A DNA stretch of 64,000 nt from Betaproteobacteria bacterium HGW-Betaproteobacteria-9 (GTDB lineage: Bacteria > Pseudomonadota > Gammaproteobacteria > Burkholderiales > Burkholderiaceae_C): NCBI GenBank assembly GCA_002842215.1, contig PHCC01000013.1, forward strand, positions 62,001-126,000, read 5' to 3'. Position 1 is the first letter of the stretch; the number at the start of each line of letters is the position of its first letter. A program made the position numbers and the translations under genes. Shown piece by piece: positions 9,875-64,000 of this stretch. Under the pieces are notes generated by a model that did not search any database, was not told where the DNA came from, and was given only the letters and a program-made list of their open reading frames with translations.

Positions 9875-9882
9875 GCTGCGCC

Positions 9883-10449: not shown

Positions 10450-10456
10450 TTCAGCC

Positions 10457-39324: not shown

Positions 39325-39437
39325 GGTGTGTCTCTTGGGGTGAGGAGGTGGGAAATGATGAACGTCACTCTATGAGTTGCATCCCAGAACACGAACGAAG
39401 AGTTTCTTGTTTTCTCATGCGGAAAACGAGCAAGCCT
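39325..39437 (-). promoter_or_regulatory. Promoter region of the rhodanese-cysK unit
   Basis: A non-coding gap between the arylsulfatase gene and the rhodanese gene. It contains ACGAACGAAGAGTTTC at 39391-39406, similar to the GGAACGAATAAC motif ahead of the second sbp gene. It also holds AT-rich stretches that could supply promoter boxes. Confidence 0.4.
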
Positions 39438-41872: not shown

Positions 41873-41919
41873 ATGAATCAAAAAGGGCAAGTGGTTGTCG
41901 GGATGGTAGAAACAGAACG

Positions 41920-42753: not shown

Positions 42754-42769
42754 GGGTTTCTCCAAAAGT

Positions 42770-43561: not shown

Positions 43562-43575
43562 GGAGCGTGTTCCTT

Positions 43576-44421: not shown

Positions 44422-44450
44422 GGCTGGCTCCTGCACGGACACAGGTCATC

Positions 44451-45527
44451 TCACTGGGATAACTGACCGTCGGCGCCATAGGCCGGCCAGTAGCCTTCCA
44501 GCTTCAGTTCCTTGAGCGCCACCGTCAGGTAGCGGCGGTCGAACCAACTGTCGATCTCGGGCACCGAACGCGTGAGCTTGAGCGCATGGGCATCTTTCGC
44601 GGCCTCCTTGTAACGCGACACAAGGAAGGTATCGAGCAGCGGCGAGAGGCGCACGCGAAGCGGCTGACCTATGAAGTCCTCGCGCCAAACCTTATCCGGG
44701 TACTCGGCCTTGCCCCAGCGTTCGAACAGCTCGGCTCGGTTGGACTCGTTCGAATAACGGTGCGCCACCTTGACCAGGGAGGTGACCACCCGCTGCACTG
44801 CTTCTGGGTGCCTCTCCGCAAACGCATCGCTCACGAGCAATGCGGTCTGACGCGTGTACTTGTAGTTGTCTGCTGCGGCAGACCAGACGATTTTCGCCAG
44901 TCCCTTGTCGCGCAGATCGAATGCGCCCACATAGTCGAAGACCGCATCCACGTCCTTGTTGATTAGCGCGGCCCGGCCGCTGGCCAGGTCCAGGTTGATG
45001 AGCCGCAGGTCGCGCTCCTTGAGGCCGTGCGCTGCCAGCGCCGCGACGGCGGCCAGATGCAGGTTGGTGCCCTTGAACAACGCAACCTTCTTACCCCTGA
45101 GATCTTCGATGCGGCGGATGTCCGAATCAGGCTGCACCGAGAGGTAAAGACCGGTACGTACGCCGCTGCCGGCAACGATCCGTGTCTTCACACCGTTGGC
45201 GCGGTGCACGATGGATGGCAGATCGCCTTGCCAGGCGAAATCGAGCTGCCCGTTGACCAGGGCCTCGTTGACCGCGGGGCCTGCGCCCTTGAAGAAAGTC
45301 CATTTGACCTCGACACCGTCTTTGCGGAAAGCCTCTTCAAAGACGCCGTCGGTGTAGGCCAGTGCCGTAGTGGTTCCTCCGTGGCGAATTGGATTGCTGC
45401 CGACACCGCCGGTGGCCACCCCGATCCGGATGACCTTCAGGGGTTCGGCGATTTGTGCCCGCACGGGGCCAGCGGCTGACAAGGTGAAGGCCAGTGCGAG
45501 TAGGCCCAGTCGTTGACGTGGATTCAT
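44451..45527 (-). CDS. Sulfonate/sulfate-ester ABC transporter binding protein, copy 2
   Basis: A 358-residue periplasmic binding protein with a signal peptide (ending PVRA-Q) and the core KVIRIGVATGG, KWTFFKGAGPAVNEAL and DLPSIVH. It is a clear paralogue of the copy at 40769-41872. It is first in the leftward transport operon, divergent from the dioxygenase gene. Two binding proteins could widen the ligand range to sulfonates and sulfate esters. Confidence 0.92.
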   Translation of the reverse strand: MNPRQRLGLLALAFTLSAAGPVRAQIAEPLKVIRIGVATGGVGSNPIRHGGTTTALAYTDGVFEEAFRKDGVEVKWTFFKGAGPAVNEALVNGQLDFAWQGDLPSIVHRANGVKTRIVAGSGVRTGLYLSVQPDSDIRRIEDLRGKKVALFKGTNLHLAAVAALAAHGLKERDLRLINLDLASGRAALINKDVDAVFDYVGAFDLRDKGLAKIVWSAAADNYKYTRQTALLVSDAFAERHPEAVQRVVTSLVKVAHRYSNESNRAELFERWGKAEYPDKVWREDFIGQPLRVRLSPLLDTFLVSRYKEAAKDAHALKLTRSVPEIDSWFDRRYLTVALKELKLEGYWPAYGADGQLSQ

Positions 45528-45794
45528 GGTTTCTCCGGTTGAATCGGTTGCTGTTGACTGGACGGAATCTACGCACGTTCCCTTGCTCAAGGAACGAATG
45601 AAAACGGATATCCAAACACGCAGATGTTTGCCTCATGAGGTCATCAGCGAATCGAATGATCACCCCGTGTTTGCCGAGCATGGATATACGGAACCATTCG
45701 TATGCGGCGGGCGTTCGGCTCTCTAAAGTGAAAAAAGGGTGGCGCAATGTGTGCCGCACCTGATCTCTTCCAACCACCGATCCAGGAGTCTTTC
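45528..45794. promoter_or_regulatory. Divergent promoter region of transporter and dioxygenase operons
   Basis: A 267-bp gap between divergent sulfur operons. GGAACGAATGAAAAC at 45591-45605 resembles the motif upstream of the second sbp gene (GGAACGAATAAC). A near-symmetric ATACG-gaaccatt-CGTAT lies at 45686-45703. Either could be the site for a CysB/Cbl-type LysR regulator such as the one encoded at 48128-49054. No direct evidence of binding. Confidence 0.45.
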
Positions 45795-46664
45795 ATGTCA
45801 CAACTCAACGACCTGCCCAGCCACTACACCCACTTCAAGGTCGAGCCCTTCACACCCAACATCGGCGCCGTGGTCCACGGCCTCGATTTGCGCCAGCCGC
45901 TTGACGATGGCACACAAGCCGAATTGCGCGATGCGCTGGCCCGCCACGAAGTCATCTTTTTCCGTGACCAGCAGCTCACCCCCGATCAGCAGGTGCGTTT
46001 CACCCGCACCTTTGGCAACGTGGCCGAGGTCAAGGCCTTCTTCCCGCGCCTGGAAAGCCACCCCGAGATCGAGATCGTCGAGAGCACGGCCGAGCGCCGC
46101 TATGCCGCCAACAACTGGCACGCCGACATCACTTGGCGCGAACAGCCGCCGCTGGGCACCAGCCTGTACGCGCAGGTGATTCCGGTCACCGGTGGCGACA
46201 CGATCTGGTCCAGCCTGACCAAGGCCTACGAAAGCCTCGAACCTGCTTTCCAGGGCTACCTCGAAACACTCACTGCTGTTCACACCTGGGAGATCAGCGG
46301 CTGGACCGAGTACCTGCTGCGCAAGGACGCCAGCGGCGAAGAGCTCAAGACCGCGCGCGTCAAATATCCGCCGGTAGAACACCCGGTGGTGCGCGTGCAC
46401 CCGGTCACCGGCAAAAAAATCCTTTACGTCAACTCCACCTTCACCAGCCACATCAAAGGACTCAAGCGCTCGCAGAGCGACGCCCTGCTGACCCAGCTGT
46501 TCGAACTGGCCCGCGTGCCCGAATTCCAGGCGCGCCTGAAGTGGCAAGAGGGCACGCTGGCCGTTTGGGACAACCGCTCCACCCAGCACTACGCCGTGGG
46601 GGACTACTTTCCGCAGCACCGCAAGCTGCACCGCATCACCATCACGACAGACAAAACGTTCTGA
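45795..46664 (+). CDS. TauD/AtsK-like 2-oxoglutarate-dependent dioxygenase
   Basis: It oxidises taurine, alkanesulfonates or alkyl sulfate esters to release sulfite or sulfate. The 289-residue protein has the iron ligands His109 and Asp111 in WHADITW and His265 in STQHYAV, with an Arg nearby (HRKLHR) for 2-oxoglutarate. The start MSQLNDLP follows a good ribosome binding site (AGGAG). Its neighbours (arylsulfatase, Ats-type transporter) favour an AtsK-like role in alkyl sulfate use, but taurine cannot be excluded. Confidence 0.92.
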   Translation: MSQLNDLPSHYTHFKVEPFTPNIGAVVHGLDLRQPLDDGTQAELRDALARHEVIFFRDQQLTPDQQVRFTRTFGNVAEVKAFFPRLESHPEIEIVESTAERRYAANNWHADITWREQPPLGTSLYAQVIPVTGGDTIWSSLTKAYESLEPAFQGYLETLTAVHTWEISGWTEYLLRKDASGEELKTARVKYPPVEHPVVRVHPVTGKKILYVNSTFTSHIKGLKRSQSDALLTQLFELARVPEFQARLKWQEGTLAVWDNRSTQHYAVGDYFPQHRKLHRITITTDKTF

Positions 46665-46689
46665 TCGACGACAACACAAGGAAGACCAC

Positions 46690-48060
46690 ATGACTCAAGG
46701 GCAACTGCAACCCAAACGAAAGCTGCGCCTGGGCGCTTTCATCATGGCCACCGGCCACCACATCGCCGCCTGGCGCCACCCGGGCGCCCAGGCCGATGCG
46801 GGTGTGAATATCGACCACTACATCGCGCTGGCGCAGACCGCCGAGCGCGGCCTGTTTGACCAGGTATTCGTGGCCGACAGTCCTGGCATCTGGCACAAAG
46901 GCGACCAGGAGTCGTTCAGCCGCCAGGGCCGCCTGTCGCACTTCGAGCCGGTCACACTGTGGGCCGCGCTGTCGGCGGTGACAAAACACATCGGCTTCGT
47001 CGCCACGGCATCGACAACCTATGAAGACCCCTATCTGCTGGCGCGCAAGTTCGCTTCACTGGACCACATCAGCAAGGGCCGCGCCGCTTGGAACGTGGTG
47101 ACGACCAGCGCCGAAAGCGTGTACGGCAACTTCGGCCTTGACGCCCACCCGGACCCTGCTACCCGCTACGAACGGGCAACCGAGTTCGTGGAAGTGGTCA
47201 AGGGACTCTGGGACAGCTTCGAAGACGACGCATTCAGCCGAAACAAGACGTCTGGCGTGTACTTCGACCCCGACAAGCTGCACGCGCTCAACCACATCGG
47301 TAAGTTCCTGAAGGTCAAGGGCCCACTGAATATCGAGCGCCCACCGCAGGGCCATCCGGTGATCGTGCAGGCCGGCTCGTCCGAAGACGGCAAGGAACTG
47401 GCCGCCGCCACGGCCGAAGCGATCTTCACCGCCTGGACCAGCCTGGCCGAAGCACAAGCCTTCTACGGCGACGTGAAAGGTCGCATGGCCAAGTACGGCC
47501 GTGGCCCCGAGCAGCTGGTGGTCATGCCTGGCATCTCTCCAGTGATCGGCCGCACAGAAGAGGAAGCTCAGGCCAAGTGGGCCGAGTTGCAGGCGCTGAT
47601 CCACCCCTCGGTGGGTCTGGCCACGCTGGCGCCGTTCTGGCCCGGTGAAGACCTGAGCAAGTGGGAGCTGGACGCCCGCCCGCCCTACATCCCCGAATCG
47701 CCCAAGGGCATCAACAGCCGGGCGCACGTGGTGCTCGAACTCGCGCGGCGCGAGAAGTACACCGTGCGCCAGCTCTACGAGTACCTGGCCGGCGCGCGCG
47801 GGCATTGGGTCGTCGTCGGCACACCGGTGCAGATCGCCGACCGCATGCAGGAATGGTTCGAGAATGGTGCGGCCGACGGCTTTAACGTGATGCCGCCGGT
47901 GCTGCCGGAATCGCTGGACGATTTCGTGGAACTGGTGGTGCCCGAGCTGCAGAAACGCGGCCTGTTCCGCACCGTCTACGAGGGCACGACGCTGCGAGAG
48001 AACCTGGGCCTGGAGCGGCCGGTGAACCGCTACGCCGAGCCGCAGGCCAAGGCCGCCTGA
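46690..48060 (+). CDS. NtaA/SnaA/DszA-family flavin-dependent monooxygenase
   Basis: A 456-residue reduced-flavin monooxygenase of the luciferase-like superfamily. LRLGAFIMATGHHIAAWRHP and VFVADSPGIW near the N-terminus are typical of the NtaA/DszA/DmoA group. It needs reduced FMN, which the SsuE-type reductase at 49587-50183 can supply. In this setting it likely opens C-S bonds of sulfones or sulfonates. It lies 25 bp after the dioxygenase gene, in one operon. Confidence 0.9.
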   Translation: MTQGQLQPKRKLRLGAFIMATGHHIAAWRHPGAQADAGVNIDHYIALAQTAERGLFDQVFVADSPGIWHKGDQESFSRQGRLSHFEPVTLWAALSAVTKHIGFVATASTTYEDPYLLARKFASLDHISKGRAAWNVVTTSAESVYGNFGLDAHPDPATRYERATEFVEVVKGLWDSFEDDAFSRNKTSGVYFDPDKLHALNHIGKFLKVKGPLNIERPPQGHPVIVQAGSSEDGKELAAATAEAIFTAWTSLAEAQAFYGDVKGRMAKYGRGPEQLVVMPGISPVIGRTEEEAQAKWAELQALIHPSVGLATLAPFWPGEDLSKWELDARPPYIPESPKGINSRAHVVLELARREKYTVRQLYEYLAGARGHWVVVGTPVQIADRMQEWFENGAADGFNVMPPVLPESLDDFVELVVPELQKRGLFRTVYEGTTLRENLGLERPVNRYAEPQAKAA

Positions 48061-48082
48061 AAAGGTGTGAAGTGGCGTTGAT

Positions 48083-48114
48083 GCGGGGCTGAACCATGGC
48101 CCCGCTATTTCTTT
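48083..48114. terminator. Terminator between convergent monooxygenase and regulator genes
   Basis: A 7-bp stem GCGGGGC/GCCCCGC with a 9-base loop followed on the plus strand by TATTTCTTT. It lies 22 bp after the monooxygenase stop, as expected for a Rho-independent terminator. Confidence 0.75.
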
Positions 48115-48127
48115 AGCACCGCCCAGC

Positions 48128-49054
48128 TCAGGCGGCTTCCTGGGCCTGCATCACCGCCTCGCGGTTGAGCGTCGGAACAAAGCTCTCGATGAATCCGTAG
48201 GCAAAGCCGGGCAGCCAGTGGTTGCGCCGCAGGCCCAGACGCGTGAGGTTGATGCGGAACAAGTGACCAGCATCAATGGCGCGCAGGTGGCTATCGCGCT
48301 CCTCGTCCATAGCGATGGCAGCCACAATGCCCACGCCCATCTCCAGCTCTACGTAGGTCTTGATCACGTCCGCGTCCATGGCTGTGAGCACCACATCCGG
48401 CTGCAGGCCGGCCTTCGCAAATGCGTCGTCGATATGCGAGCGGCCGGTATATCCCACCTCGTAGGTGATGATCGGGTAGTCGATCAGATCAAGCAGCGTG
48501 ACTTGTTGGGGCAGCGACAGCAACGGGTGACCGGGCGGTACCACGATGCTGTGGCTCCAGCGGTAACACGGCAGCGTAACCAACTGCTCATAGCTGGCCA
48601 GCGCTTCGGTGGCCACGCCGATGTCGGCATCGCCAGCCAGCAGCATTTCGGCCACCTGCTTGGGCGATCCCTGATGCAGGTGCAGTGTGACGCGCGGGTA
48701 ACGCTTGCGGAAATCGCGCACCACATGGGGCAGTGCATACCGCGCCTGCGAGTGGGTAGCGGCGATGGACAGGCGGCCTTCTTCGCGGCCCTGGAGTTCC
48801 TGCCCGGCGCGTCGCAGGCTCTCGGCGTCCAGCAGCACACGCTGGATGATGGGCATGAGCGCCTGGCCGGCCGATGTGAGCCCCAACAGGCGCTTGCCAG
48901 AGCGCACGAACAGCTCCACACCCAGCTCTTCTTCCAGCTCTCGCACCTGGCGGCTCACGCCTGGCTGAGAAGTGTGCAAGGCCAGGGCCACTTCGGTCAG
49001 GTTGAAATGGCAACGCTCGGCCTCCCGGACCGAGCGCAGTTGTTGGAAGTTCAT
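48128..49054 (-). CDS. CysB/Cbl-family LysR-type regulator
   Basis: A 308-residue LysR-type regulator. The N-terminal helix-turn-helix has VALALHTSQPGVSRQVRELE, and the residues after it match CysB/Cbl/SsuR, the regulators of sulfur starvation genes in enterics and Burkholderia. The C-terminal ligand domain would bind O-acetylserine, sulfate or adenylylsulfate in relatives. It probably controls the divergent and neighbouring sulfur operons. It is first upstream of nothing on its strand apart from a 75-bp gap to the ssuF-like gene. Confidence 0.92.
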   Translation of the reverse strand: MNFQQLRSVREAERCHFNLTEVALALHTSQPGVSRQVRELEEELGVELFVRSGKRLLGLTSAGQALMPIIQRVLLDAESLRRAGQELQGREEGRLSIAATHSQARYALPHVVRDFRKRYPRVTLHLHQGSPKQVAEMLLAGDADIGVATEALASYEQLVTLPCYRWSHSIVVPPGHPLLSLPQQVTLLDLIDYPIITYEVGYTGRSHIDDAFAKAGLQPDVVLTAMDADVIKTYVELEMGVGIVAAIAMDEERDSHLRAIDAGHLFRINLTRLGLRRNHWLPGFAYGFIESFVPTLNREAVMQAQEAA

Positions 49055-49135
49055 GGTGCTGGTTGTTCTTTGAATAGTGAAAAAGCGACACCGGCACTCG
49101 AGGCCTCGGTGTCGCCGACGAAGCAGAACGCGCTG

Positions 49136-49351
49136 TCAAAGCTTGGCGATAGAAACCTCGGTGGACTTGACCAGCGCCACAACGTCGGACCCTACGCTGA
49201 GCTCGAGCGCGTCGACTGAGCGGGTGGTGATGACCGAGGTCACGATGCCCCAAGGCGTCTCGACGTCGATTTCGGAGACGACATCGCCGCGGATGATTTC
49301 GCGCACCTTGCCTTTGAACTGGTTGCGCACGTTGATGGCTTGAATGGACAT
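49136..49351 (-). CDS. Mop/TOBE-domain molybdopterin-type binding protein (SsuF-like)
   Basis: A 71-residue protein consisting of one Mop domain. The motif SIQAINVRNQFKGKVREI and later TTRSVDALELSVGSDVVAL are typical of Mop proteins that bind molybdate or similar oxyanions. In Pseudomonas putida the ssu operon ends with ssuF, a 71-residue protein of this type needed for sulfonate use. The present gene lies 67 bp after the small membrane protein gene on the same strand as ssuE, supporting an ssuF identity. Confidence 0.88.
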   Translation of the reverse strand: MSIQAINVRNQFKGKVREIIRGDVVSEIDVETPWGIVTSVITTRSVDALELSVGSDVVALVKSTEVSIAKL

Positions 49352-49418
49352 GGGAAACTCCTATGAAAGGTGTGAGGAAATTGAAGGGAATTGAAAAAGC
49401 AAGAAACCGTGAATGGAT

Positions 49419-49580
49419 TCAGCCGCGCCCGAACAGGAAGTACAGCCCCAACGCCACCAGAAGGACCATCACCACCAGGTTGACCGCGTGTTCGGCAGTC
49501 GTCATACCCTGACTCGGTTCAGTCGAATGGAAGTGGTCCTGCTGTTCAGGCTGCGGGCGAGGGTGGTCGCGGGGGCTCAT
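49419..49580 (-). CDS. 53-aa membrane protein between ssuE and ssuF-like gene
   Basis: A short protein with a polar, His/Pro/Gln-rich N-terminus (MSPRDHPRPQPEQQDHFH) and one transmembrane helix near the C-terminus (VVMVLLVALGLYFLF). The ATG lies six bases after the ssuE stop, suggesting coupled translation. It is too short for most gene callers. I do not know a named family. The Ssu context suggests a role tied to sulfonate use or metal/oxyanion handling. Confidence 0.55.
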   Translation of the reverse strand: MSPRDHPRPQPEQQDHFHSTEPSQGMTTAEHAVNLVVMVLLVALGLYFLFGRG

Positions 49581-49586
49581 GGTGGA

Positions 49587-50183
49587 TCACACGCTGTATT
49601 GCGTCTGCACAAACGGCACAGAGGCGAACTCCGGGGAAACAGGCCAGCGCAGGCCTTCGTGCAACAGGCTGGATACGGCGTCGTCAAGCCGGGCATGGAT
49701 CTCTTCAATGGGCCGATACGCGCCGTCCGCATCCTTGGGAAGCTGACCGTCTGAGGCGTACACCCCTGGCAGGATGTGCTTGGCCCCGAGCGACTGAAGC
49801 ACCGGACGCAGCGCGTAGTCCAAGGCCAACATGTGGTGCGGACTGCCTCCGGTTGCAATGGGTAGCACCACCTTGCCTTTAAGAGCTGTCTGCGGCAGCA
49901 GATCCAGAAAGACCTTCAAAACGCCACTGTAGGCGGCCTTGTAAACGGGCGTGGCCACCACCAGGGCACGTGCATTGGCAACCCGCTCGATCGAAGCAAT
50001 CACGCTGGGATGGCCCCAGTCGGCCAGCAACAGCGCCTGTGGCGAGAGATCGCGGATACGCAGCCAGTCGACCTTCAGGCGACGACCATCGACCTTTTCG
50101 TGCAGGCGGGCAGCCACCTCGTTCAACAAAGTGGACGAGCGCGACTGCTCCGAAGGGCTGCCGGCGATCAGTAAAACAGACAT
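49587..50183 (-). CDS. ssuE: NADPH-dependent FMN reductase SsuE
   Basis: It supplies reduced FMN for sulfonate or sulfone monooxygenases. The 198-residue flavodoxin-like protein has LLIAGSPSEQSRSS for FMN phosphate binding and TPVYKAAYSGVLK, both characteristic of SsuE. The start is MSVLLIAG, the residue count then matching the family. It stands downstream of the second sbp gene and before the small membrane and ssuF-like genes. The partner may be the monooxygenase at 46690-48060. Confidence 0.93.
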   Translation of the reverse strand: MSVLLIAGSPSEQSRSSTLLNEVAARLHEKVDGRRLKVDWLRIRDLSPQALLLADWGHPSVIASIERVANARALVVATPVYKAAYSGVLKVFLDLLPQTALKGKVVLPIATGGSPHHMLALDYALRPVLQSLGAKHILPGVYASDGQLPKDADGAYRPIEEIHARLDDAVSSLLHEGLRWPVSPEFASVPFVQTQYSV

Positions 50184-50229
50184 GGAAAATGGCCCCCCAG
50201 ACAGTGTGTGACAGTGGTTGCTGAAACTG

Positions 50230-51243
50230 TCATTTCTTGGTGTAAATCTGGTCGAACGAGGCGCCGTCGGCAAAGTGTTGCTTGGCGGCTTGTGCCCAGC
50301 CACCAAAGGCCTCGTCGATCGTGAAGAGGTTCAGCTTGGGAAACTGCTGGGCGTACTTGGCCTGGGCTTTGGCAGATGTCGGGCGATAAAAATGCTTGCC
50401 TGCCAGATCCTGCGCTTCGTCGCTGTACAGGTATTCGAGGTAGGCTTGTGCGACGACCCGTGTGCCCTTTTTGTCCACGTTCTTGTCCACGACGGTGACT
50501 GCAGGTTGAGCCAGGATGCTGATAGACGGCACCACGATCTCAATGGCGTCCCCAAACTCTTTCTTCAGCAGATACGCCTCGTTCTCCCAGGAGATGAACA
50601 CGTCGCCCTGATTGCGTTGCGAAAACGTGATAGAAGACCCGCGTGCGCCGGTGTCGAGCACCGGCACGTTGGCGTAGAGCTTGCCCACAAACACCTTGGC
50701 CTTGTCGTCACTGCCATACCTGCGCTTGGCGAACTCCCATGCCGCCAGGTAGTTCCAGCGCGCGCCACCCGAGGTCTTGGGATTGGGGGTGATCACCGAC
50801 ACGCCTGACTTGACCAGATCGTCCCAATCCTTGATGCCTTTGGGATTGCCCTTGCGCACCACCAATACGATGGTCGATGTGTACGGCGACGAGGCCAGAG
50901 GGAGGCGTTTTTGCCAGTCTTTGGGAATCAGCTGGGCCTTTTCAGACAGCGCATCCGTGTCGCCGGCGAGCGCCAATGTGGCGACATCGGCATCCAGGCC
51001 ATCGATGATGGAACGGGTCTGCTTGCCCGAACCCCCGTGGCTTTGTTTGACGGTCACTTCCTGACCAGTCGTGGTCTTCCAGTGTTTGGTGAACGCGGCG
51101 TTGAAATCGACGTAGAACTCGCGCGTCGGGTCGTAGCTTACGTTGAGCAGGGTGACGGGCGCAGACTGGGCAAAGGACGGAAATGCGGCTGCGGCGAAGG
51201 CAGCGGCGACCAGGGTGGTGGTGAAAGTGCGGCGGGTATTCAT
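50230..51243 (-). CDS. sbp: Sulfate-binding periplasmic protein, second copy
   Basis: A 337-residue sulfate-binding protein, paralogous to the one at 36055-37050. It has a signal peptide ending PSFA-Q and [29 protein letters not shown], and [18 protein letters not shown]. No second CysTWA set is nearby, so it likely shares the transporter encoded at 33-36 kb. It is the first gene of the ssuE operon. Confidence 0.95.
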
Positions 51244-51913
51244 AGGTTTTCTCCGTGGATCAGGTGACAACGGAGGCCATCATGAAACGCCATGCAAAAA
51301 ACTGGAACGAATAACTTCTCAGTTGCATATAAGAAAAGCAACTAAGAAGACCCGCTTGCACTGTTTGTCCGAGGATATGTCGCCTATCGGAACTGATCGG
51401 CTTGGATAGTTAAATCGGTTGCCGCCATTTAGTCGAAATAGCAAGTTCATTCTTCACATGAACAGCCGTTCCGTTCCGCCAGCCTAGCCTAGGCCACCTC
51501 GGTCGAGCGACCGGTCTGGGTGGTTGAGCTGCCGTCTGTTGTTTGGTTCGGTGAATGGCCGGTTGCAGCAACTCACGGTAGCTCAGGTATCAAATCCGGA
51601 TGACTGCACCCAGCCTGAACTGACTTTGGCCGTGCTTTCAGGGCGGTCAGCAAGACAGGGATGGCGGTAGTTTGACTGTTTGCTGTGTCTATCTTTCGAG
51701 GTGCGACGTGGCCACTTGGACGACTCCCCAAGCCACAAACACCTCTTGAGCACGCGTCAGCTCCAGCCTTGGCATTGACCCAGCCGGTTTTGATTTCGCC
51801 TGACGCATGAACCTTACGGGCATTGGCCGATGCGGAAGCCCATGACAGCCAACCTAAAAGGCCAGCTGCTCAGGTGGTTGGTCTTTTCTCCCCTGGCACG
51901 TTTGTCAACCCAT
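51244..51913. promoter_or_regulatory. Gene-free junction with promoter of the second sbp gene
   Basis: The left part holds the sbp promoter region, with GGAACGAATAAC at 51304-51315, the clearest copy of the motif common to sulfur units. From about 51420 to 51900 I see no gene or insertion sequence. Several stretches look like decayed coding or intergenic DNA. This marks the right junction of the sulfur cargo with the ICE backbone, followed by the 39-bp motif at 51914. Confidence 0.5.
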
Positions 51914-57172: not shown

Positions 57173-59557
57173 TCAAACTTCACTCAACAGCTTCTTGGCC
57201 AGTGCCACCTCCAGGCTGTCTCCGGCATCGTTGAGCACGTCCAGACCGGAATCTGGCATGTCCCCCGAGGTGGACTGCGACACCGCGATCTTCTTGGCCA
57301 TTAACCGCAAGCACTCCATCTGCGAGCTGCCTGCATAGCCCAAGAAAAGCACCTTCACAGCGTTCTTCTGTCCAATCCGCCATGAACGCCGCGCCGCCTG
57401 TTGGACGGTGTAGACGTTGTAGCCGGACTGCATGAAGACGATGGTCGGGAACTCCAGCAAGTCCAACCCGGTTTTCACCAGCTCGGGATTGCAGATCATC
57501 ACATCGATGCCGCGTTCAACCTGGTCGGCAACCCAGTCTTCGCGCTTGGAAGCGTCCACACTGGCACGCAACACTGCCACCTTCAGGCCTTTGGCCTCCA
57601 GCAAGGCCTTGAGCCTGGCTGTGGTGTCGCGGGTGCCTGAGTAGATCGAATACGCCAGGACACGGCGACCGTCAGCCTTCTCTTCCTTGCAGATGCGCAG
57701 CAGCTCGGCCTCCTTCGGGCTGGTTTCACCCTCTTCAAAGATCGCCTTCTGGGTGTACAGCAGCGCTTTCGTGCGGGGGTGGCGAACCACCTCCATCCGA
57801 AAACAGCAATCTGGCCACGCCAACAGCACATTCATGACCACGCCCAGGAGCGTGCTGTCTTTCAGTGCCAGCGCTTGCTTGAGGATCTGCACAAGGCTGC
57901 GCGACATCGCGTCGTAAGCAGCTTGTTGTGCCGGTGTCATGGGCACGTCGATGAAGCGCTCTTCGTAGGGCGGCAACACCTTTTGGCCAATGTCTTTTAG
58001 CTTCAAAAAGACCGTGTTGGGAAGCACGTACCGCATGATGCCAACTGGGCCGAAGCCCGGTGCTTTGCTGGTTCTCACGGTCAGGGATTTACCCTTGGCC
58101 GTGCGGTGGGAGCTTTCGCCCGACTCCTTGTAAATGTCTTTCAGAATTCCGTGCTCTCGCATGAAACTCATCGCGGCATTGCCCATGGAGCCCGTCTTGG
58201 ACGGCTTGAACCCGTCCTCGATCATGGCGCTCGGGTTCAAGCGCCACAGCAGGTGGAACAAATCGTCGGCATAGCCGCCCATGAGGGTGCCGGTCAGCAG
58301 CAACGTCTTTTGACACTGACTGGCCAGCACACCCATGGCCTGGCCCTGTGCCGAACCCTCGTTCTTGTACTCGTGCCCTTCATCCACCACCAGCAGCCCA
58401 AAGTAATGGCGCGGCAGGTAGCGCTTGATGAACTCGGTGGGCTGGTAACCGCCCTCCCCGACGCTGAACTCAAAGTTGGCCAGGCTGCGCTCCATGCGCG
58501 TGGCCTGCCTGTCAGAAAACACCAGGTCCCCGTTCTCATCCATGAGGTTGAGGAACTCGTACACGTTGTCACCCAGCATGGCACCCAGCATCTTCTCGCC
58601 AAAGGTGTTGAGCAGCTTGGAGGCTGTTTTTTCACCGATGGTGGGCATCTGCTTCAAGGCTCCGAGCACCAGGTCGTGCATGGAATCAATGGCTCGCCCG
58701 GAACGAATCAACGTCCACAAGGCTGCACCACACTTTTGACCGTCGCCCATCTCGGCTTCACAACGGCGGCGTTTGTCACCCAGACTCGCTTGCGCATAGG
58801 CCACAGACACGGGCACCGAATGCCCGTCTCCGTCCTCCGCACAAATGAAGGACCCACAGTCAGGACAAGCGGCACCCGTGAAGACCTCGCCCTCGATCAG
58901 GGTTTTTCGTGTCACAAATGAGGCCTTCCAGTGGAAGCCCATCCGCATGCGTACACGTCCGAGCACAAAGAACTCGGGCTGCTCGGTCTTCAGGCCCAAC
59001 ATCGAGCGCAACTGCAAGAGCTTGCGCAGGGTGTCCGGACCGTTCAGAACCCAAACCTTGGCACCGGGTACCGTCTCCAGGATCTCGCGCCGCCACTTGT
59101 AGACCAGATGGGGAGGCGCAATGACGATGGTGCGCGGATGGGTCGCCTGCATGGCGGCCGCCGCGCAGATCGCCATCATGGTTTTACCTGTGCCCATTTC
59201 CGCGTTGATCACCACAGCAGGCTGCTTGTGGTCCACCAGGAGCTTCACGGCGGCTTGCACTGCGTCGGACTGGGCCTTGAACGGCTGGCGTTTGAGGCCC
59301 GCCATGATCTCGGCACGTTGCTGGTGAAGCGGTGTGCCTTCATCCAGCTCGGGGTCGTAAATCGCCGGGTTTTGCGATCTCACTTGAGACAACAGGCCAT
59401 CACCAAACTCGTTGATGAAGTCCGTCAGGCTCATGCGATCTCCCAATTCACTGCCGTCGTTGGACAGTTCACCAGATTGCTCTTCCGGTGGGGTTTCACT
59501 GTCGGCATCCAAGGTGGCCACGTCAGTGGCTTGATCCTGGTTGTTTTCTTCGTTCAT
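57173..59557 (-). CDS. SNF2/DEAD-type helicase-like ATPase
   Basis: A 794-residue superfamily 2 ATPase of the kind often carried by ICEs. It has Walker A NAEMGTGKTMMAI at about residue 119, DEGH at about 388 (motif II), TGTLMGG (motif III) and the C-terminal QQAARRSWRIGQ motif VI at about 722. A cysteine-rich segment (TGAACPDCGSFICAED) suggests a bound zinc. The ATG at 59557 is used, with GGAGAG just before it. The leader carries the hairpin pair described for this operon. Confidence 0.9.
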   Translation of the reverse strand: MNEENNQDQATDVATLDADSETPPEEQSGELSNDGSELGDRMSLTDFINEFGDGLLSQVRSQNPAIYDPELDEGTPLHQQRAEIMAGLKRQPFKAQSDAVQAAVKLLVDHKQPAVVINAEMGTGKTMMAICAAAAMQATHPRTIVIAPPHLVYKWRREILETVPGAKVWVLNGPDTLRKLLQLRSMLGLKTEQPEFFVLGRVRMRMGFHWKASFVTRKTLIEGEVFTGAACPDCGSFICAEDGDGHSVPVSVAYAQASLGDKRRRCEAEMGDGQKCGAALWTLIRSGRAIDSMHDLVLGALKQMPTIGEKTASKLLNTFGEKMLGAMLGDNVYEFLNLMDENGDLVFSDRQATRMERSLANFEFSVGEGGYQPTEFIKRYLPRHYFGLLVVDEGHEYKNEGSAQGQAMGVLASQCQKTLLLTGTLMGGYADDLFHLLWRLNPSAMIEDGFKPSKTGSMGNAAMSFMREHGILKDIYKESGESSHRTAKGKSLTVRTSKAPGFGPVGIMRYVLPNTVFLKLKDIGQKVLPPYEERFIDVPMTPAQQAAYDAMSRSLVQILKQALALKDSTLLGVVMNVLLAWPDCCFRMEVVRHPRTKALLYTQKAIFEEGETSPKEAELLRICKEEKADGRRVLAYSIYSGTRDTTARLKALLEAKGLKVAVLRASVDASKREDWVADQVERGIDVMICNPELVKTGLDLLEFPTIVFMQSGYNVYTVQQAARRSWRIGQKNAVKVLFLGYAGSSQMECLRLMAKKIAVSQSTSGDMPDSGLDVLNDAGDSLEVALAKKLLSEV

Positions 59558-59620
59558 GGTTCTCTCCAAAAGGTAAAAAATGCAGAGACCAGACCCCGCA
59601 GGGTCTTGTGTCCCTGCGGG
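59558..59620 (-). promoter_or_regulatory. Leader hairpins of the SNF2-type gene
   Basis: Hairpin 1 is 59595-59620, perfect CCCGCAGGG/CCCTGCGGG. Hairpin 2 is 59558-59590, in which GGT and CTCT pair with ACC and AGAG of the ribosome binding site region, with one bulged base, and the 3' arm reaches the ATG. A T-rich loop separates the arms. Confidence 0.65.
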
Positions 59621-59686
59621 TGGTTAAAAACAGCGGCTGGCGCCGCTTTTGAGGTCAACCGACCCAGAGGGTCGGTCAGTTCGGTT

Positions 59687-60301
59687 TCAGGCCTCCAGGA
59701 GGCCGTCACGCACGCCATCGCTGACGAATTGCACAAAGTGGTCACTCAAGCTGACCCGCAAAGCCATAACCTGGCCAAGCGCTGGGTACACCGGGTCATC
59801 GAGCAACTCGACGGCCCGCTTTTCCCGGCACCAGTCCATGCACGGTTGTCGCCAGTGATTCAGAAGGGCCACCGGCGACAGATCCACCATGGCCTGCCAC
59901 GCCTTTCGATACAGAGCGTCCACCTCGGTCGGTGCCCGCATCTGTCCATCGGCTGGTCGGTGCATGACCCAAGCGATCCGGTTGGCTCGGTCTGGGCTTT
60001 GCAGGGTCTTGTCGTAGATCCAGTTGTGACTCAGGGGGCCGAACAAGTTCTGTTTTGGCAATCGCGCGGCATGCTTGCCAAGCCGCTCGGTTCCCTCCAC
60101 ATCCACCGGATGCCGTTGCCCGTTCGCATCCACCAGGTGGAAACGGTTCAGGCCGCGTTCGGTCTTGCCCAGCTCAAGGGACGCCATGAACTGCATGACC
60201 GATCCATCCCGCCCAAAGTAAGACAAGAACATCAAGCGGCCATCGCTGTTGCGCAAACAAGCGTCTACCCAGAGTTCGGAGAACTCTTCGATTTGGTACA
60301 T
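59687..60301 (-). CDS. Unknown 204-aa ICE protein
   Basis: A soluble protein starting MYQIEEFSELWVD, with GGAGG six bases upstream of the ATG at 60301. It contains recognisable segments such as LSYFGRDGSVMQFM and PLSHNWIYDKTL, but no motif that I can place. It is part of the minus-strand operon whose genes each have a hairpin leader. Possibly a maintenance or anti-restriction protein, as is common in this part of ICEs, but that is context only. Confidence 0.75.
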   Translation of the reverse strand: MYQIEEFSELWVDACLRNSDGRLMFLSYFGRDGSVMQFMASLELGKTERGLNRFHLVDANGQRHPVDVEGTERLGKHAARLPKQNLFGPLSHNWIYDKTLQSPDRANRIAWVMHRPADGQMRAPTEVDALYRKAWQAMVDLSPVALLNHWRQPCMDWCREKRAVELLDDPVYPALGQVMALRVSLSDHFVQFVSDGVRDGLLEA

Positions 60302-60302
60302 A

Positions 60303-60366
60303 GGTGCCTCCAGTTGAAAATTGCGGGAGGCACCCACCCCTGCGGGTGGGGTTCCCGCAGGGGTGG
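60303..60366 (-). promoter_or_regulatory. Leader hairpins of the 204-aa protein gene
   Basis: Hairpin 1 at 60334-60366 has 13-bp perfect arms (CCACCCCTGCGGG and its complement). Hairpin 2 at 60303-60334 is a perfect 9-bp stem GGTGCCTCC/GGAGGCACC that holds the whole ribosome binding site GGAGG and ends one base from the start codon. Confidence 0.75.
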
Positions 60367-60375
60367 TCGTTGAAA

Positions 60376-60738
60376 TCAGGCGAGCGCAGGGCTCACCGGA
60401 AACTTGGCGTAATGCGCCTGAACGGCCGACAAAATGCCAGGGATGGTTTTCAGCACACTTTCGTGCTGCGCTGAAATCACTTTCTCTGTGACGCGGGCCG
60501 GCTTCGTCACAACCAACGTTTCTGAAAAATCCCCACCAGGCGTGCCAAAACCCATGATGTGCCGCAAACCACCCTCCACTTTCGTGTGGACAGTGGCTGT
60601 GGTGCGCAAGAGGCCTCGGTCGTTCCTGTAGGTGCGGATCTTGAGCAGCTGATCGCCAGTCAGATCCATTGCGGATGTTGCATTCCAGCCGTCACGGTCA
60701 CGGAAGATGCGGGTTTCAATGTTGTTGTCGTTGCTCAT
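60376..60738 (-). CDS. Unknown 120-aa ICE protein
   Basis: A small soluble protein with a beta-rich pattern (RTTATVHTKVEGGLRHIMGF, DFSETLVVTKPARVTEK). It reads as a single domain with no motif I can name. AGGAG lies nine bases before the ATG, inside the loop of the second leader hairpin. It lies between the RadC-like gene and the 204-residue protein gene on one transcript. Confidence 0.75.
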   Translation of the reverse strand: MSNDNNIETRIFRDRDGWNATSAMDLTGDQLLKIRTYRNDRGLLRTTATVHTKVEGGLRHIMGFGTPGGDFSETLVVTKPARVTEKVISAQHESVLKTIPGILSAVQAHYAKFPVSPALA

Positions 60739-60798
60739 GGTGGTAACTCCTGTTCAAAAAAATGAAGCGGACCACCCCCAGCGGGAAGGCCCGCAGGG
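60739..60798 (-). promoter_or_regulatory. Leader hairpins of the 120-aa protein gene
   Basis: Hairpin 1 at 60777-60798: GCGGG/CCCGC plus CCC/GGG outside one mismatch. Hairpin 2 at 60739-60776: GGTGGT pairs with ACCACC directly before the ATG, enclosing the ribosome binding site and a T-rich loop. Confidence 0.65.
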
Positions 60799-60847
60799 CT
60801 AAGAAAACTGACACAGCGCCCGTCATAGGACAGGCAGATTCAAGGGC

Positions 60848-61447
60848 TTAGATCAAACCCATTTCGGCCATCGATGCGCAATGAGCATCGCCCACGATGA
60901 TGTGGTCGAGCACGCGCACATCAACCAGCGTCAAAGAGGCTTTCAGACTTTGAGTCAAGGCCTCATCGGACCGGGAAGGCTGGGTTGTCCCGGAAGGATG
61001 GTTGTGCGCCAAGATCACGGCGGCCGCATTCAGTTGCAAGCAGTGTTTGACCACTTCGCGCGGGTAGACCGAGGTTTGCGTGAGCGTTCCACGGAACATT
61101 TCTTCGGCCCGAATCAATCGATTTTGCGAGTCCAGAAACAGAACCCAGAAACTCTCATGGGAGAGCCCACCGATTTTCAGACGCAAAAATTCACGCACTG
61201 CCTGTGGGTTGTCGAACAAAGGCCGATCCTGCATGTACTCGTGCATTGCTCGGGTGAGCAGTTCACGAGCGCACATCAAGCGGTGAATACCGCCGCTGTC
61301 TGCCGCCTTTGCTTCATCGCCCAGTTGCAGCCCGAAAGCCTGTGCCAAACTGGTGATGTGTTCCATGACGCCCTCGCCGAGGACGTGTTGCAGCAGGTCC
61401 CGATCCGGGAGCCGTTGCAGTTCTTTCAAATCAATGACCGTGGCCAT
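60848..61447 (-). CDS. radC: RadC-like JAB/MPN-domain protein
   Basis: A 199-residue protein of the RadC family, common on ICEs and phages. The JAMM metal motif is [15 protein letters not shown] at about residues 146-160, and the preceding [13 protein letters not shown] is typical. It has an N-terminal helical part of about 70 residues. It was named for DNA repair, but its activity is not established and a role in anti-restriction or DNA processing is only suggested. The 240-bp leader holds seven hairpins. Confidence 0.9.
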
Positions 61448-61651
61448 GTGCTTCTCCTAAAAAAGTGTGAAGCACGGCCCCCGCAGGGACACGATGCCCC
61501 ACGGGTTGGTAGAAATAACAGAAACTCCAGCAGCTCTCGCTGCCGGGCGCGTTTACAGAGTTGAACGCGCCTAGAAACCATCTTTGGTTTGATCAAATGG
61601 TTTCCCTCAACCGCCAGGTGTGTGGCGCCTGAGGGAACCCATCTGGGTTCC
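61448..61651 (-). ncRNA. Multi-hairpin leader upstream of the RadC-like gene
   Basis: Seven hairpins in 204 bases. From the gene outward: 61448-61475 (GTGCTTC/GAAGCAC, touching the ATG and part of the ribosome binding site), 61480-61505, 61530-61543 (GCAGC/GCTGC), 61546-61571 (GGCGCGTT/AACGCGCC), 61574-61604 (GAAACCAT/ATGGTTTC), 61606-61633 (CTCA..CGCCA/TGGCG..TGAG), 61634-61651 (GGAACCC/GGGTTCC). Most have perfect arms. A structured leader RNA is the simplest reading. A single-strand DNA origin or recombination site is an alternative. Confidence 0.6.
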
Positions 61652-61688
61652 GCGAAGTGTTTGACCACCCCGCTCTGGCCAGCCTGGT

Positions 61689-61880
61689 CTAGGCTGGCGT
61701 CACAGAGAACGCCCAGTCCGGCGCAATGCCAAAAACCGGTTGCTCCTGTTCGTCTTGCGCGTCCGCTGCATCAGCAGTCAACGCAAATTTGGAGAGTGCC
61801 GCGCAGCTAGCCAACTCTTCCGTGTTTTCTTCAACGGTTCCGAGGAACCGTCCTTCGCAATGCACATTCCAAGTCTTCAT
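61689..61880 (-). CDS. Unknown 63-aa ICE protein
   Basis: A small acidic soluble protein starting MKTWNVHCEGRFLGTVEEN, with GGAGGT six bases before the ATG. The C-terminal part is rich in Asp, Ala and Gln. It is 26 bp from the next upstream gene and has no hairpin leader of the kind seen at its neighbours. No function can be proposed. Confidence 0.7.
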   Translation of the reverse strand: MKTWNVHCEGRFLGTVEENTEELASCAALSKFALTADAADAQDEQEQPVFGIAPDWAFSVTPA

Positions 61881-61906
61881 TGAAAAACCTCCGGTTAAAC
61901 AGCTGC

Positions 61907-62146
61907 TCAGTAGCCTTGCTTTCCCAGCTCCTGAACCAAGATATTGGCCACCACCGACTTCTGATCATCGCTCAGGAGCGACATGAGTCGCTGCAAAGCC
62001 TCTGCGGCAGCGAATGCCCTCGCCGCTTCCGGCCAGATCTTTTTAACCGCAATCTGCTGCTTTCCATCGAAGGCCAAACGCCGAACAATGACGCTGATTT
62101 CACCCCAGGTGGGAGTCAATTCCACTGTGCCAACTTGCACATCCAT
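61907..62146 (-). CDS. Unknown 79-aa ICE protein
   Basis: A small protein with an N-terminal beta segment (VELTPTWGEISVIVRRL) and helices at the C-terminus (AARAFAAAEALQRLMSLL). ATG at 62146 has AGGAG eight bases upstream and lies 14 bases after the methyltransferase stop. An ATG at 62164 is less likely. No motif recognised. Its coupling to the methyltransferase suggests a linked function. Confidence 0.7.
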   Translation of the reverse strand: MDVQVGTVELTPTWGEISVIVRRLAFDGKQQIAVKKIWPEAARAFAAAEALQRLMSLLSDDQKSVVANILVQELGKQGY

Positions 62147-62160
62147 GGCACCGCTCCTGG

Positions 62161-63306
62161 TCAACTGATTTTCACGATCCGACCCTTGTTGGGGCCAGGC
62201 GTGAATTCGATGGCAGAAATAACGGGCACGAACTTGTCGAGCATCGTCACGGTTTGTTGACTCTCCCCCTTGTCATTGATCTCGGTGGTCACCGTTCGCT
62301 GCTTGCGCTTGAAGGTGTCGCCCTTGATCAGAAATGACCGTCCACCCTTGGACTTGATCATCCCCCTGACTTGGCCTGCAGCCAACGCAAGCGCCAGGTG
62401 CCAGCGGCTCAAATCACGCAATGGTCGCCGATGGCTGGCGCGCGCCTGGTTGAAATGCCGATCAAACCCTGTCCACAGCAAGCTGGGTTCGAAGTGTTTC
62501 AACTCCTCGACCAGCTGGTCACGGTCAATGCGAACGGCCCGAAAGTCGAATTCATCGTCAGTGGCCACCGGCAGGATGTACGGCGTCTCACACCACTCTG
62601 TGGGCAACACCTGGTCTTTCAACTCGCCCGCCTGGGCTTTGGTCAGCATTTCCAACACGTCTTTTCGGGGGTGGGTCGGTTTGACCTTCACCCCAAAGAT
62701 GACGCACTGTTGAAACTGCTTCTCCGGTGCCATGTAGAACCGCAGGTCTTTGAAGTGCCGCGCTAGGTAGGTTCTGATGTCGTCGTCGAGCGCGTAAAAC
62801 GGGACGAGGTACACCAACACACCACCGGGCATCAAGGTTGTCGCGGTCTTCTTGAGGAAGGTTCGCTCCAGTCTTTCGGCTTTCTCCCCACCGTCGCTGA
62901 TGTTCCGATCCATATTGGCCGAATCGGAGACACCAAAGCCGTAGGGCGGGTTCAAGAACAGCAGGCTCAGAGAGCGCGGCTTGATCACCACGTCGTGAAT
63001 GTCGGCATGGATGACGCGAAACAGGAGCTTCTTCGCCTCCCATGCGCGCTCTTTGTCGAACTCCACGCCCAGCGTTTCAATGAGGCTTGGTGCATCCAAA
63101 CCCTGTTGGTAGTCCACCAGGTGCTGTGCAATGTCTGCGAGAGCCGCGCCCGTGCCGCAGCAAGGGTCACAAATCCGGATCAGACGCCGGGCACTGTGGG
63201 ATGGGGTCGCCAGCGCAGATTGAATGCGCGAGAGCGTGTCCTCATCGGTAGGAAAGTAACCGGCCTTCACATGGTTGTTGGCCGAGCGAGAAAACATCAA
63301 CGCCAT
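62161..63306 (-). CDS. ICE-associated DNA methyltransferase-like protein (DUF6094-type)
   Basis: A 381-residue protein with an S-adenosylmethionine fold. Motif I is DPCCGTGAALADIAQ at about residue 46, and the catalytic NPPYGF of N6-adenine or similar amino-methyltransferases is at about 118. The start is MALMFSRSANNH, with AAGGAG seven bases upstream. Such proteins are usual in ICEs near RadC-like genes. They could modify the element against host restriction. No restriction partner is seen. Confidence 0.88.
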   Translation of the reverse strand: MALMFSRSANNHVKAGYFPTDEDTLSRIQSALATPSHSARRLIRICDPCCGTGAALADIAQHLVDYQQGLDAPSLIETLGVEFDKERAWEAKKLLFRVIHADIHDVVIKPRSLSLLFLNPPYGFGVSDSANMDRNISDGGEKAERLERTFLKKTATTLMPGGVLVYLVPFYALDDDIRTYLARHFKDLRFYMAPEKQFQQCVIFGVKVKPTHPRKDVLEMLTKAQAGELKDQVLPTEWCETPYILPVATDDEFDFRAVRIDRDQLVEELKHFEPSLLWTGFDRHFNQARASHRRPLRDLSRWHLALALAAGQVRGMIKSKGGRSFLIKGDTFKRKQRTVTTEINDKGESQQTVTMLDKFVPVISAIEFTPGPNKGRIVKIS

Positions 63307-63366
63307 GAGCGTCTCCTTGAAGAAGAATCCCCGAGGAAGCACCCGGACGGGTGCTCCCGTCCGGGT
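63307..63366 (-). promoter_or_regulatory. Leader hairpin of the methyltransferase gene
   Basis: Hairpin 1 at 63341-63366 has 11-bp perfect arms (ACCCGGACGGG and its complement). The second stem near the ribosome binding site is poor here, with several bulges, unlike in the other leaders of this operon. Confidence 0.55.
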
Positions 63367-63379
63367 TGGTTTAAGACAT

Positions 63380-63823
63380 TCAGGCGGAACGGCTGTTCGC
63401 ACCCATCACGTAGGCTTCCATCATCGCGTCGCACACCAAACCCGTCTCCAGGTTGTGGACGGCCGACCCGTTGCCTTCTGGCCTGAGATTCAGACGCCGA
63501 ATGGCAATCTCCTGGACCGTGCGCTGAGCCGCATGTTCATCCGCCGCTTCGATCACTCGAAAGAGTGAACGGCGAACATCCACATGGCCAAACGCAACCG
63601 CCTCAAGGCTTGCGTCGTTCAAGGCTTCCAGTACCGAGGTTTTGCGAGCCATCAACAACGCACGAGCGGCAGTCTGCCAGTCTTGTGTCGTCAACGACTT
63701 CATCACCTCAATCCGTTCAGCCGCTTGTGCGTCTTTGCTTTTCACAGCGCCCATGAGCGTTTGCTCAACTTCGCCGTGCAAAACAGAAATCTCGCGTTCA
63801 AATGCTTGTGCCGTAATTGCCAT
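63380..63823 (-). CDS. Unknown 147-aa ICE protein
   Basis: A helical soluble protein beginning MAITAQAFEREISVLHGEVE. AGGAG lies seven bases before the ATG, inside the second leader hairpin. The segments GNGSAVHNLETGLVCDAMMEAYVMG at the C-terminus and ALLMARKTSVLEAL in the middle are notable, but I cannot place the family. It is the first full gene of the minus-strand operon in the window. Confidence 0.75.
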   Translation of the reverse strand: MAITAQAFEREISVLHGEVEQTLMGAVKSKDAQAAERIEVMKSLTTQDWQTAARALLMARKTSVLEALNDASLEAVAFGHVDVRRSLFRVIEAADEHAAQRTVQEIAIRRLNLRPEGNGSAVHNLETGLVCDAMMEAYVMGANSRSA

Positions 63824-63886
63824 GGTGTACTCCTAATCAAGAAAAAAACCAGGAGACACCCCGCCCCACTGGGGATCGAGATCCCC
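63824..63886 (-). promoter_or_regulatory. Leader hairpins of the 147-aa protein gene
   Basis: Hairpin 1 at 63871-63886: GGGGATC/GATCCCC. Hairpin 2 at 63824-63860: GGTGT and CTCCT pair with ACACC and AGGAG, with one bulged base on the 3' arm. The ribosome binding site AGGAG is wholly paired and the arm reaches the ATG. Confidence 0.7.
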
Positions 63887-63911
63887 TGGTGGGTTGGTAA
63901 AAAACTAGCTG

Positions 63912-64000
63912 CTAGTCGGCGGTCAGGTCGGTTTTCACCAGAGCCCAATCGTTTGCCATTTGCTCCCACTTGCGAGAGCCGTCTTCAAAATAACAATGCA
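63912..64000 (-). CDS. C-terminal end of an ICE gene, cut by window edge
   Basis: On the minus strand a frame enters from the right edge and ends at TAG (63912-63914). The visible tail contains HCYFEDGSRKWEQMAND and ends VKTDLTAD. Too little is present to name it. It would be the gene upstream of the 147-residue protein in the same operon. Confidence 0.6.
   Translation of the reverse strand, partial: HCYFEDGSRKWEQMANDWALVKTDLTAD

Follow-up and report, generated by a model that had tools for sequence, protein, structure and literature searches.

Transcription attenuators, such as trp-type leaders and riboswitch platforms, act through terminator and antiterminator folds, and erm-type translational attenuators use alternating segments in which one strand frees or hides the Shine-Dalgarno (SD) sequence. 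Conjugative elements of the type studied here can carry resistance, virulence, and catabolic genes. The pLS20-type conjugation operon is reported to contain many internal intrinsic terminators that halt stray transcription, and the conAn system to provide processive antitermination (PMC8955417). A report on PAPI-1 places the small RNA (sRNA) PesA, a candidate terminated leader that we did not adopt, downstream of pilM2 (PMC5493400), and Weinberg et al. 2010 (PMC2864571) lists the radC RNA as certain to be an RNA and as probably cis-regulatory. Here we describe repeated gene leaders in a minus-strand operon of a conjugative element of Betaproteobacteria bacterium HGW-Betaproteobacteria-9 (assembly GCA_002842215.1). 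The operon lies in a stretch of 64,000 nt (contig PHCC01000013.1, positions 62,001 to 126,000 of the forward strand) that we analysed as a whole and refer to as the window. Each leader has three mutually complementary segments, and each is probably both a conditional terminator and a lock on the ribosome binding site.

Results

The six leaders have the block order C1-G1-C2-G2-C3-(U-tract)-G3 followed by AUG, in which C-rich blocks alternate with G-rich blocks and G3 holds the ribosome binding site. We call G1, which belongs to hairpin 1, segment A; C3, the 5' arm of a second stem, segment B; and G3, the SD arm, segment C (Table 1). A preliminary description, made from the sequence alone, had reported a GC-rich hairpin followed by a second stem with a 3' arm that contains or covers the SD sequence, and this arrangement is present in all six leaders. 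The 3' arm also reaches the ATG as described, stopping one base short in the 204-aa leader. The main feature was overlooked: there is a third complementary segment, and the 5' arm of the second stem also pairs with hairpin 1 in all six leaders. Comparison with leaders of related elements likewise finds C3 complementary both to the SD arm and to hairpin 1, where it matches the 5' arm and the loop. The six leaders fold more stably than shuffled sequences, with z-scores of -2.4 to -6.4 (60 dinucleotide shuffles each), and two more copies lie upstream, past the end of the window (G000:C19:126772-126840 and 127904-127976).

Several details of the preliminary description need correction. It had treated the methyltransferase leader as an exception, but the GGGTGCTTCCT/AGGAGACGCTC stem is present there with one C-A mismatch (scores in Table 1), and homologous leaders carry the stem too. 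The six genes are not strictly consecutive: two open reading frames (ORFs) without a match to the leader model, one of 79 aa with its ATG at 62146 and a short one that begins at 61880, separate the methyltransferase and RadC genes. A ACCAACCC-like start had been assigned to every leader, but the 120-aa leader starts TTAGCCC and the 204-aa and SNF2 leaders start ACCACCC.

To test these pairings, we exchanged partner segments between leaders and compared own with swapped pairing energies (20,000 permutations per test). For 37 non-redundant leaders (of 64 compiled, one of which was left out for want of a recognised flank), A:B averaged -18.8 kcal/mol for own partners against -13.1 for swapped ones, and B:C -15.9 against -9.1. 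The values for 54 non-redundant leaders found by the model (of 98 non-seed matches with a start codon) were -15.8 against -10.8 for A:B and -10.2 against -7.2 for B:C. A further 54 leaders, from additional loci and sharing less than 70% identity with the first-search matches, gave -17.6 against -12.5 and -12.3 against -8.0. The observed sum was reached by 0 of the 20,000 permutations in each of the six tests, three of A:B and three of B:C. B:C is a biased measure here, since the first set was selected on it and the models contain it; A:B was neither chosen on nor modelled, and its tests on both model-found sets used only matches with a start codon. Among the six leaders of the window, the true assignment is the single best of the 720 permutations for B:C and likewise the best for A:B. 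The claim that the second-stem arms covary within one genome is supported. Covariation of this stem was also seen among homologues, where the preliminary description had placed its refutation test, through partner swapping and pair counts rather than R-scape.

In an alignment fitted to the structure, the lower stem of hairpin 1 (CCC:GGG) and three upper GGG:CCC pairs show little variation, and elsewhere in hairpin 1 and the SD stem most pairs differ in both partners. We infer that invariance of the shared G-block pairs is expected from bistability, because each G block has two C partners. The covariation supports two mutually exclusive predicted folds, as in attenuators and riboswitch platforms.

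The types of mismatch allow a test of whether RNA or DNA is under selection, which we picked after whole-leader folding energies showed no difference between the strands; a pairing that works in RNA would be expected to accept G-U on the sense strand and to avoid A-C. G-U and A-C pairs, scored alike when the register was chosen, were counted in 123 non-redundant leaders with a start codon. A:B has 144 G-U against 19 A-C pairs (p 6e-25), which argues that A:B acts in the sense-strand RNA. B:C has a weaker sense-strand bias than A:B: outside the SD core there are 52 G-U against 24 A-C pairs (p 0.0018), and overall 75 against 81. The first 48 nt of the leaders do fold to lower energy in the sense orientation (80/133, p 9e-4). 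Matches lacking a start codon were excluded from the sense/antisense counts, and also from those of the U-tract.

The U-tract starts where A:B ends. The fraction of T is 0.59-0.69 at positions 1-5 after this stem (107 leaders) versus 0.20 overall, and where the spacer to the SD sequence is at least 13 nt (27 leaders), T makes up 0.667 beside A:B versus 0.296 before the SD sequence (p 1.5e-4). The leader thus has the predicted anatomy of an intrinsic terminator, a GC-rich hairpin running into a U-tract, and the position of the U-tract at the end of A:B points to transcription termination besides, or instead of, a purely translational switch.

We also predicted minimum free energy (MFE) folds for 116 leaders, both cut just before the SD sequence and at full length (7 of the 123 had no recognised SD sequence and were dropped). 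The cut leaders fold into A:B in 90/116 cases, with the inner hairpin in 83 of these 90, and the full leaders form the SD stem in 103/116. A predicted switch from A:B when cut to the SD stem when complete is found in 78/116 leaders.

The leaders recur in related elements, as the preliminary description had expected. A covariance model of 68 positions that does not include the start codon (R1) gave 165 matches at E up to 1 in 21 loci, of which the best 150 were aligned and the duplicates of the window in L041 dropped. Among these best 150, 98 of the 104 non-seed, non-identical matches run into a start codon. As 24 of the 104 had entered an earlier manual compilation on account of preceding an ATG, the fairer figure is 75 of the 80 others; random positions on these strands abut any start codon in 21-23% and ATG in 8-9%. 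In the host genome (5.26 Mb), all 8 R1 matches at E up to 0.1 are in this operon, six of them being the leaders in the window. A second model (R2) gave 98 matches at E up to 0.1 in 16 further loci, 94 of them with a start codon. In four annotated plasmid regions (Comamonas aquatica, Pseudomonas aeruginosa pKLC102, Aliivibrio fischeri, and Stutzerimonas stutzeri), 15/21 matches are within 2 nt of an annotated start, including 7/8 in the pKLC102 region. Each of 19 regions counted has 4-11 sequence-divergent copies ahead of most operon genes.

Matches were found in 32/399 genomes (20 families) at the level of the order, 17/369 at the level of the class, and 11/398 at the level of the phylum, two of the latter outside the class; the stricter filters of these searches lose weak matches, single-match genomes may be chance, and gene context was viewed for part of the genomes. 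Rfam 15 has no match to the leaders of the window at gathering score, and at E up to 5 it gives two weak, unrelated matches elsewhere and none in the leaders. Among the relatives scanned, which did not include L067, L075, L100, L101, and L104, the sole Rfam matches overlapping modules are five radC RNA matches that enter from upstream.

Table 1. Leader modules, genes, and neighbouring elements. Positions are those of the window except in the last row; segments are A (G1), B (C3), U-tract (U), and SD arm (C, G3); scores are R1 bits and pairing energies are in kcal/mol.
Feature	Position	Strand	Segments or family matches	R1	A:B	B:C
Module of 147-aa gene	63824..63900	-	A 63881-63890, B 63849-63860, U 63841-63848, SD arm 63824-63834, ATG 63823	45.2	-19.4	-18.4
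Module of DUF6094 methyltransferase gene	63307..63372	-	A 63349-63358, B 63335-63344, U (weak) 63319-63328, SD arm 63307-63317, ATG 63306	31.1	-31.2	-14.9
Module of RadC gene	61448..61512	-	A 61494-61502, B 61467-61475, U 61459-61464, SD arm 61448-61458, ATG 61447	37.5	-11.6	-10.8
Module of 120-aa gene	60739..60805	-	A 60788-60794, B 60767-60776, U 60756-60763, SD arm 60739-60751, ATG 60738	37.4 (match 60740-60805)	-20.3	-14.2
Module of 204-aa gene	60302..60369	-	A 60353-60358, B 60323-60334, U 60317-60322, SD arm 60303-60311, ATG 60301	35.4	-16.0	-20.6
Module of SNF2-type helicase gene	59558..59627	-	A 59610-59617, B 59582-59590, U 59575-59581, SD arm 59558-59565, ATG 59557	39.5	-15.1	-10.4
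Terminator-like hairpin with T-run, directly upstream of SNF2 module	59632..59647	-				
147-aa protein gene	63380..63823	-	no Pfam or NCBIfam match			
DUF6094 methyltransferase gene	62161..63306	-	PF19587, E 2.8e-26			
RadC/JAB-domain gene	60848..61447	-	PF04002, E 2.4e-45			
120-aa protein gene	60376..60738	-	no Pfam or NCBIfam match			
204-aa protein gene	59687..60301	-	no Pfam or NCBIfam match			
SNF2-type helicase gene (794 aa)	57173..59557	-	PF00176, PF00271			
radC RNAs in pKLC102 (L103)	3884-4031, 4961-5111, 7489-7626		at 5' side of module			

Discussion

Three complementary segments, their covariation, selection on G1:C3 as RNA, a U-tract anchored to that stem, the position at the start codon, and recurrence across elements are all backed by the sequences, and termination, refolding, and a trigger are what we infer from them. 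On this basis we regard it as probable that each module, serving one gene, works both as a conditional terminator and as a lock on the ribosome binding site. In Fold I, hairpin 1 would form from C1:G2 and G1:C2, and C3:G3 would hide the ribosome binding site. In Fold II, G1:C3 with an inner C2:G2 hairpin would make one long hairpin running into the U-tract, leaving the binding site free if polymerase passes. Until G3 is made, Fold II would be favoured, halting unmodified RNA polymerase. RNAs that get past could stay in Fold II, with the SD sequence free, or tend to relax into Fold I, with translation blocked, so that the genes would be doubly silent until either the fold or the polymerase is changed. 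The lock might be opened by an antitermination factor, by the radC RNA in elements that have it, or by a protein that recognises hairpin 1 and the CAACCC-like start, which is well conserved. Most operon genes would then own a lock against stray expression.

Several observations weigh against this reading. By MFE, 26/116 cut leaders do not form A:B, the 204-aa leader of the window keeps hairpin 1 instead when cut, and A:B persists in 21/116 full leaders. Most full-length folds are the locked state. U-tracts are weak in GC-rich hosts, with a mean of 3.5-4.2 T in 9 (L066-L069), and also in the methyltransferase leader of the window. Whole-leader folding energy was lower in the sense orientation in 64/133 leaders (p 0.54), or 33/63 when non-redundant (p 0.95), which is no difference from antisense. 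Within the SD core, B:C has 23 G-U against 57 A-C pairs, as would be expected if ribosome binding fixes the A of GGAG while C3 matches the GGGG of G1.

The preliminary description had proposed a purely translational switch, in which C3:G3 would hide the ribosome binding site, G1:C3 would free it, and a trans-acting factor would shift all the genes together with no termination involved. Its SD-covering stem holds, and we consider the switch a possible but doubtful explanation of the whole. C3:G3 covaries in every permutation test, albeit as the criterion by which leaders were selected, its G-U bias outside the SD core is that of the sense strand, its SD arm abuts the start codon in 98/104 and 94/98 matches, and some modules have poor U-tracts. 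A purely translational account is nevertheless incomplete, since the A:B pairing is the better supported and the U-tract ends A:B. In the 27 leaders in which the two can be told apart, the U-tract tracks the G1:C3 stem and not the SD sequence; G1:C3 is stronger than C3:G3 in the model-found leaders (-15.8 versus -10.2 and -17.6 versus -12.3 kcal/mol); and some full leaders have little or no C3:G3 by MFE (for example L068:3838). An RNA-binding protein or the SNF2 helicase had been suggested as the controller, but we found nothing linking either to the leaders. The contig of the element has no NusG-type or ProQ-type paralogues, the only matches in the host being on other contigs.

The modules could instead be elements of mRNA processing or stability, with cuts in U-rich stretches yielding single-gene mRNAs that have a protective 5' hairpin. 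U-runs inside the modules would suit this, as would the terminator-like hairpins with T-runs directly upstream of 20/122 modules, against 2.1 expected from shuffles. We think this very unlikely, as it leaves the leader-specific three-way complementarity of G1, C3, and the SD arm unexplained, along with the abutment to the start codon. The figure of 20/122 also led us to reject the idea that an upstream terminator precedes every module. In the window, a second terminator-like hairpin with a T-rich tail at 61527-61546 lies shortly before the RadC module, and together with the one near the SNF2 module it indicates that some gene boundaries carry two terminator-like structures.

Hairpins acting in DNA, either as single-stranded promoters on the entering strand during conjugation or as recombination sites, would fit the location of the modules checked in context, which sit in or beside conjugative elements, and the strand-neutral whole-leader folding energy; they are highly improbable given the G-U excess in A:B, unexpected from a strand-neutral function, and the SD sequence and start codon built into the module.

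Equally improbable is membership of the leaders in the radC RNA family (RF01754), suggested by radC RNAs that adjoin the module in relatives and by 5/16 Rfam matches that extend 34-38 nt into it: the 149-nt model has another layout and ends before the module in 11/16, and many modules have no radC RNA. We rejected it as the identity of the leaders in the window for lack of a model match; there is no radC RNA in the window at gathering score, none at E up to 5 in 59000-64000, and none in the host genome at E 0.001.

As a neighbour, the radC RNA is closely tied to the module. It adjoins a module in 27/28 matches among relatives, and each of the 19 matches above the gathering score either overlaps a module (5 cases) or is followed by one within 24 nt; five of these modules score weakly (E 0.19-0.73). 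In the first set of radC loci, 8/9 matches over the cut-off adjoin a module, some of them weak, and L010 is without any. Conversely, L090-L099 have many modules and 0 radC matches, and in the 26-kb pKLC102 region a radC RNA accompanies 3 of the 8 modules. Because modules occur without it, the module is a separate unit able to follow a radC RNA, and it is possibly the output stage of that RNA. The two are alike in occurring in several copies in related elements, directly adjacent to each other; the radC RNA differs in its length of 149 nt and its structure, in accompanying only some leaders, and in having no copy in the window. In L063-L069 too, a radC RNA is found 5' of the module in some leaders only.

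Two of the three radC RNAs of pKLC102 are preceded by a TTGACA hexamer, with a -10-like hexamer 17 nt further on, where the radC RNA begins. Upstream of the radC RNAs in L063, L064, L066, L068, and L069 we noted a recurring GCCGATT...CTGACG-like block, often 17 nt from a NANNCT hexamer at the radC RNA start, which is possibly a shared promoter or activator site. A pattern search of the window for this block found none, and a count of -10-like hexamers upstream of the radC RNA in 24 loci gave no shared position.

It is conceivable, though we judge it unlikely, that the radC RNA is a cis-acting RNA antiterminator (compare HK022 put RNA and EAR) that would let polymerase pass the terminator and SD lock of each gene. 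If so, the operon would be expressed only from transcripts begun at the element's own promoters, and elements without a radC RNA would use another antiterminator. Either way, the module gives the radC RNA a physical neighbour and hence a testable role.

The plus-strand genes of the window's element encode, among others, a TIGR03744 conjugative ATPase and a TIGR03754 TraD coupling protein, types that occur in integrative conjugative elements using MPF_G transfer. Two carriers of related operons, pKLC102 and an A. fischeri plasmid, are typed MPF_G/MOBH, and the host belongs to the same genus as genome G080. The stretch at 39225-51270 of the window resembles cargo, its ORFs, judged from their translations, presumably encoding a sulfatase-like protein, a sulfonate-type ABC transporter, a TauD-like dioxygenase, a monooxygenase, a LysR-type regulator, and a sulfate-binding-like protein. 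In L076 (G344:C283, about 9279-13893), the SNF2 helicase gene is apparently split, and group II intron matches lie between its two parts. Near the elements of relatives there are matches to a fluoride riboswitch (L065, 11121-11186) and to an anti-hemB sRNA (L044, 18562-18645).

The logic of exclusive hairpins, a U-tract, and hiding of the SD sequence is already known. The combination in this module, its repetition per gene with leader-specific sequences, and its link to the radC RNA are absent from Rfam 15 and from the literature matches listed, a comparison that did not extend to the supplements of Weinberg et al. 2010. A repeated leader with private sequences and one block logic makes it directly testable how elements of this type silence many genes in most cells. 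The leaders are also a natural set of bistable RNAs for studies of co-transcriptional folding.

Like transcription attenuators, the modules have exclusive hairpins, one of them with a U-tract, and a segment common to two partners. Unlike them, they occur as 4-11 divergent copies per region before most operon genes, with a third, SD-hiding pairing just past the U-tract. No known ligand or aptamer was seen in the window's copies, and no leader peptide was recognised, though none was searched for. With erm-type attenuators they share alternating segments that would expose or hide the SD sequence, and they differ in the U-tract after the alternative hairpin and again in the lack of a recognised leader peptide, with the same limit. 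A precedent in organization is pLS20 with conAn, where a conjugation operon holds many internal terminators. Of such a system we find repeated terminator-like modules; the only NusG-type match in the host is on another contig, and the radC RNA is a candidate antiterminator in some elements only. That system belongs to Gram-positive plasmids, whereas here the terminator-like elements are themselves the gene leaders and overlap an SD lock.

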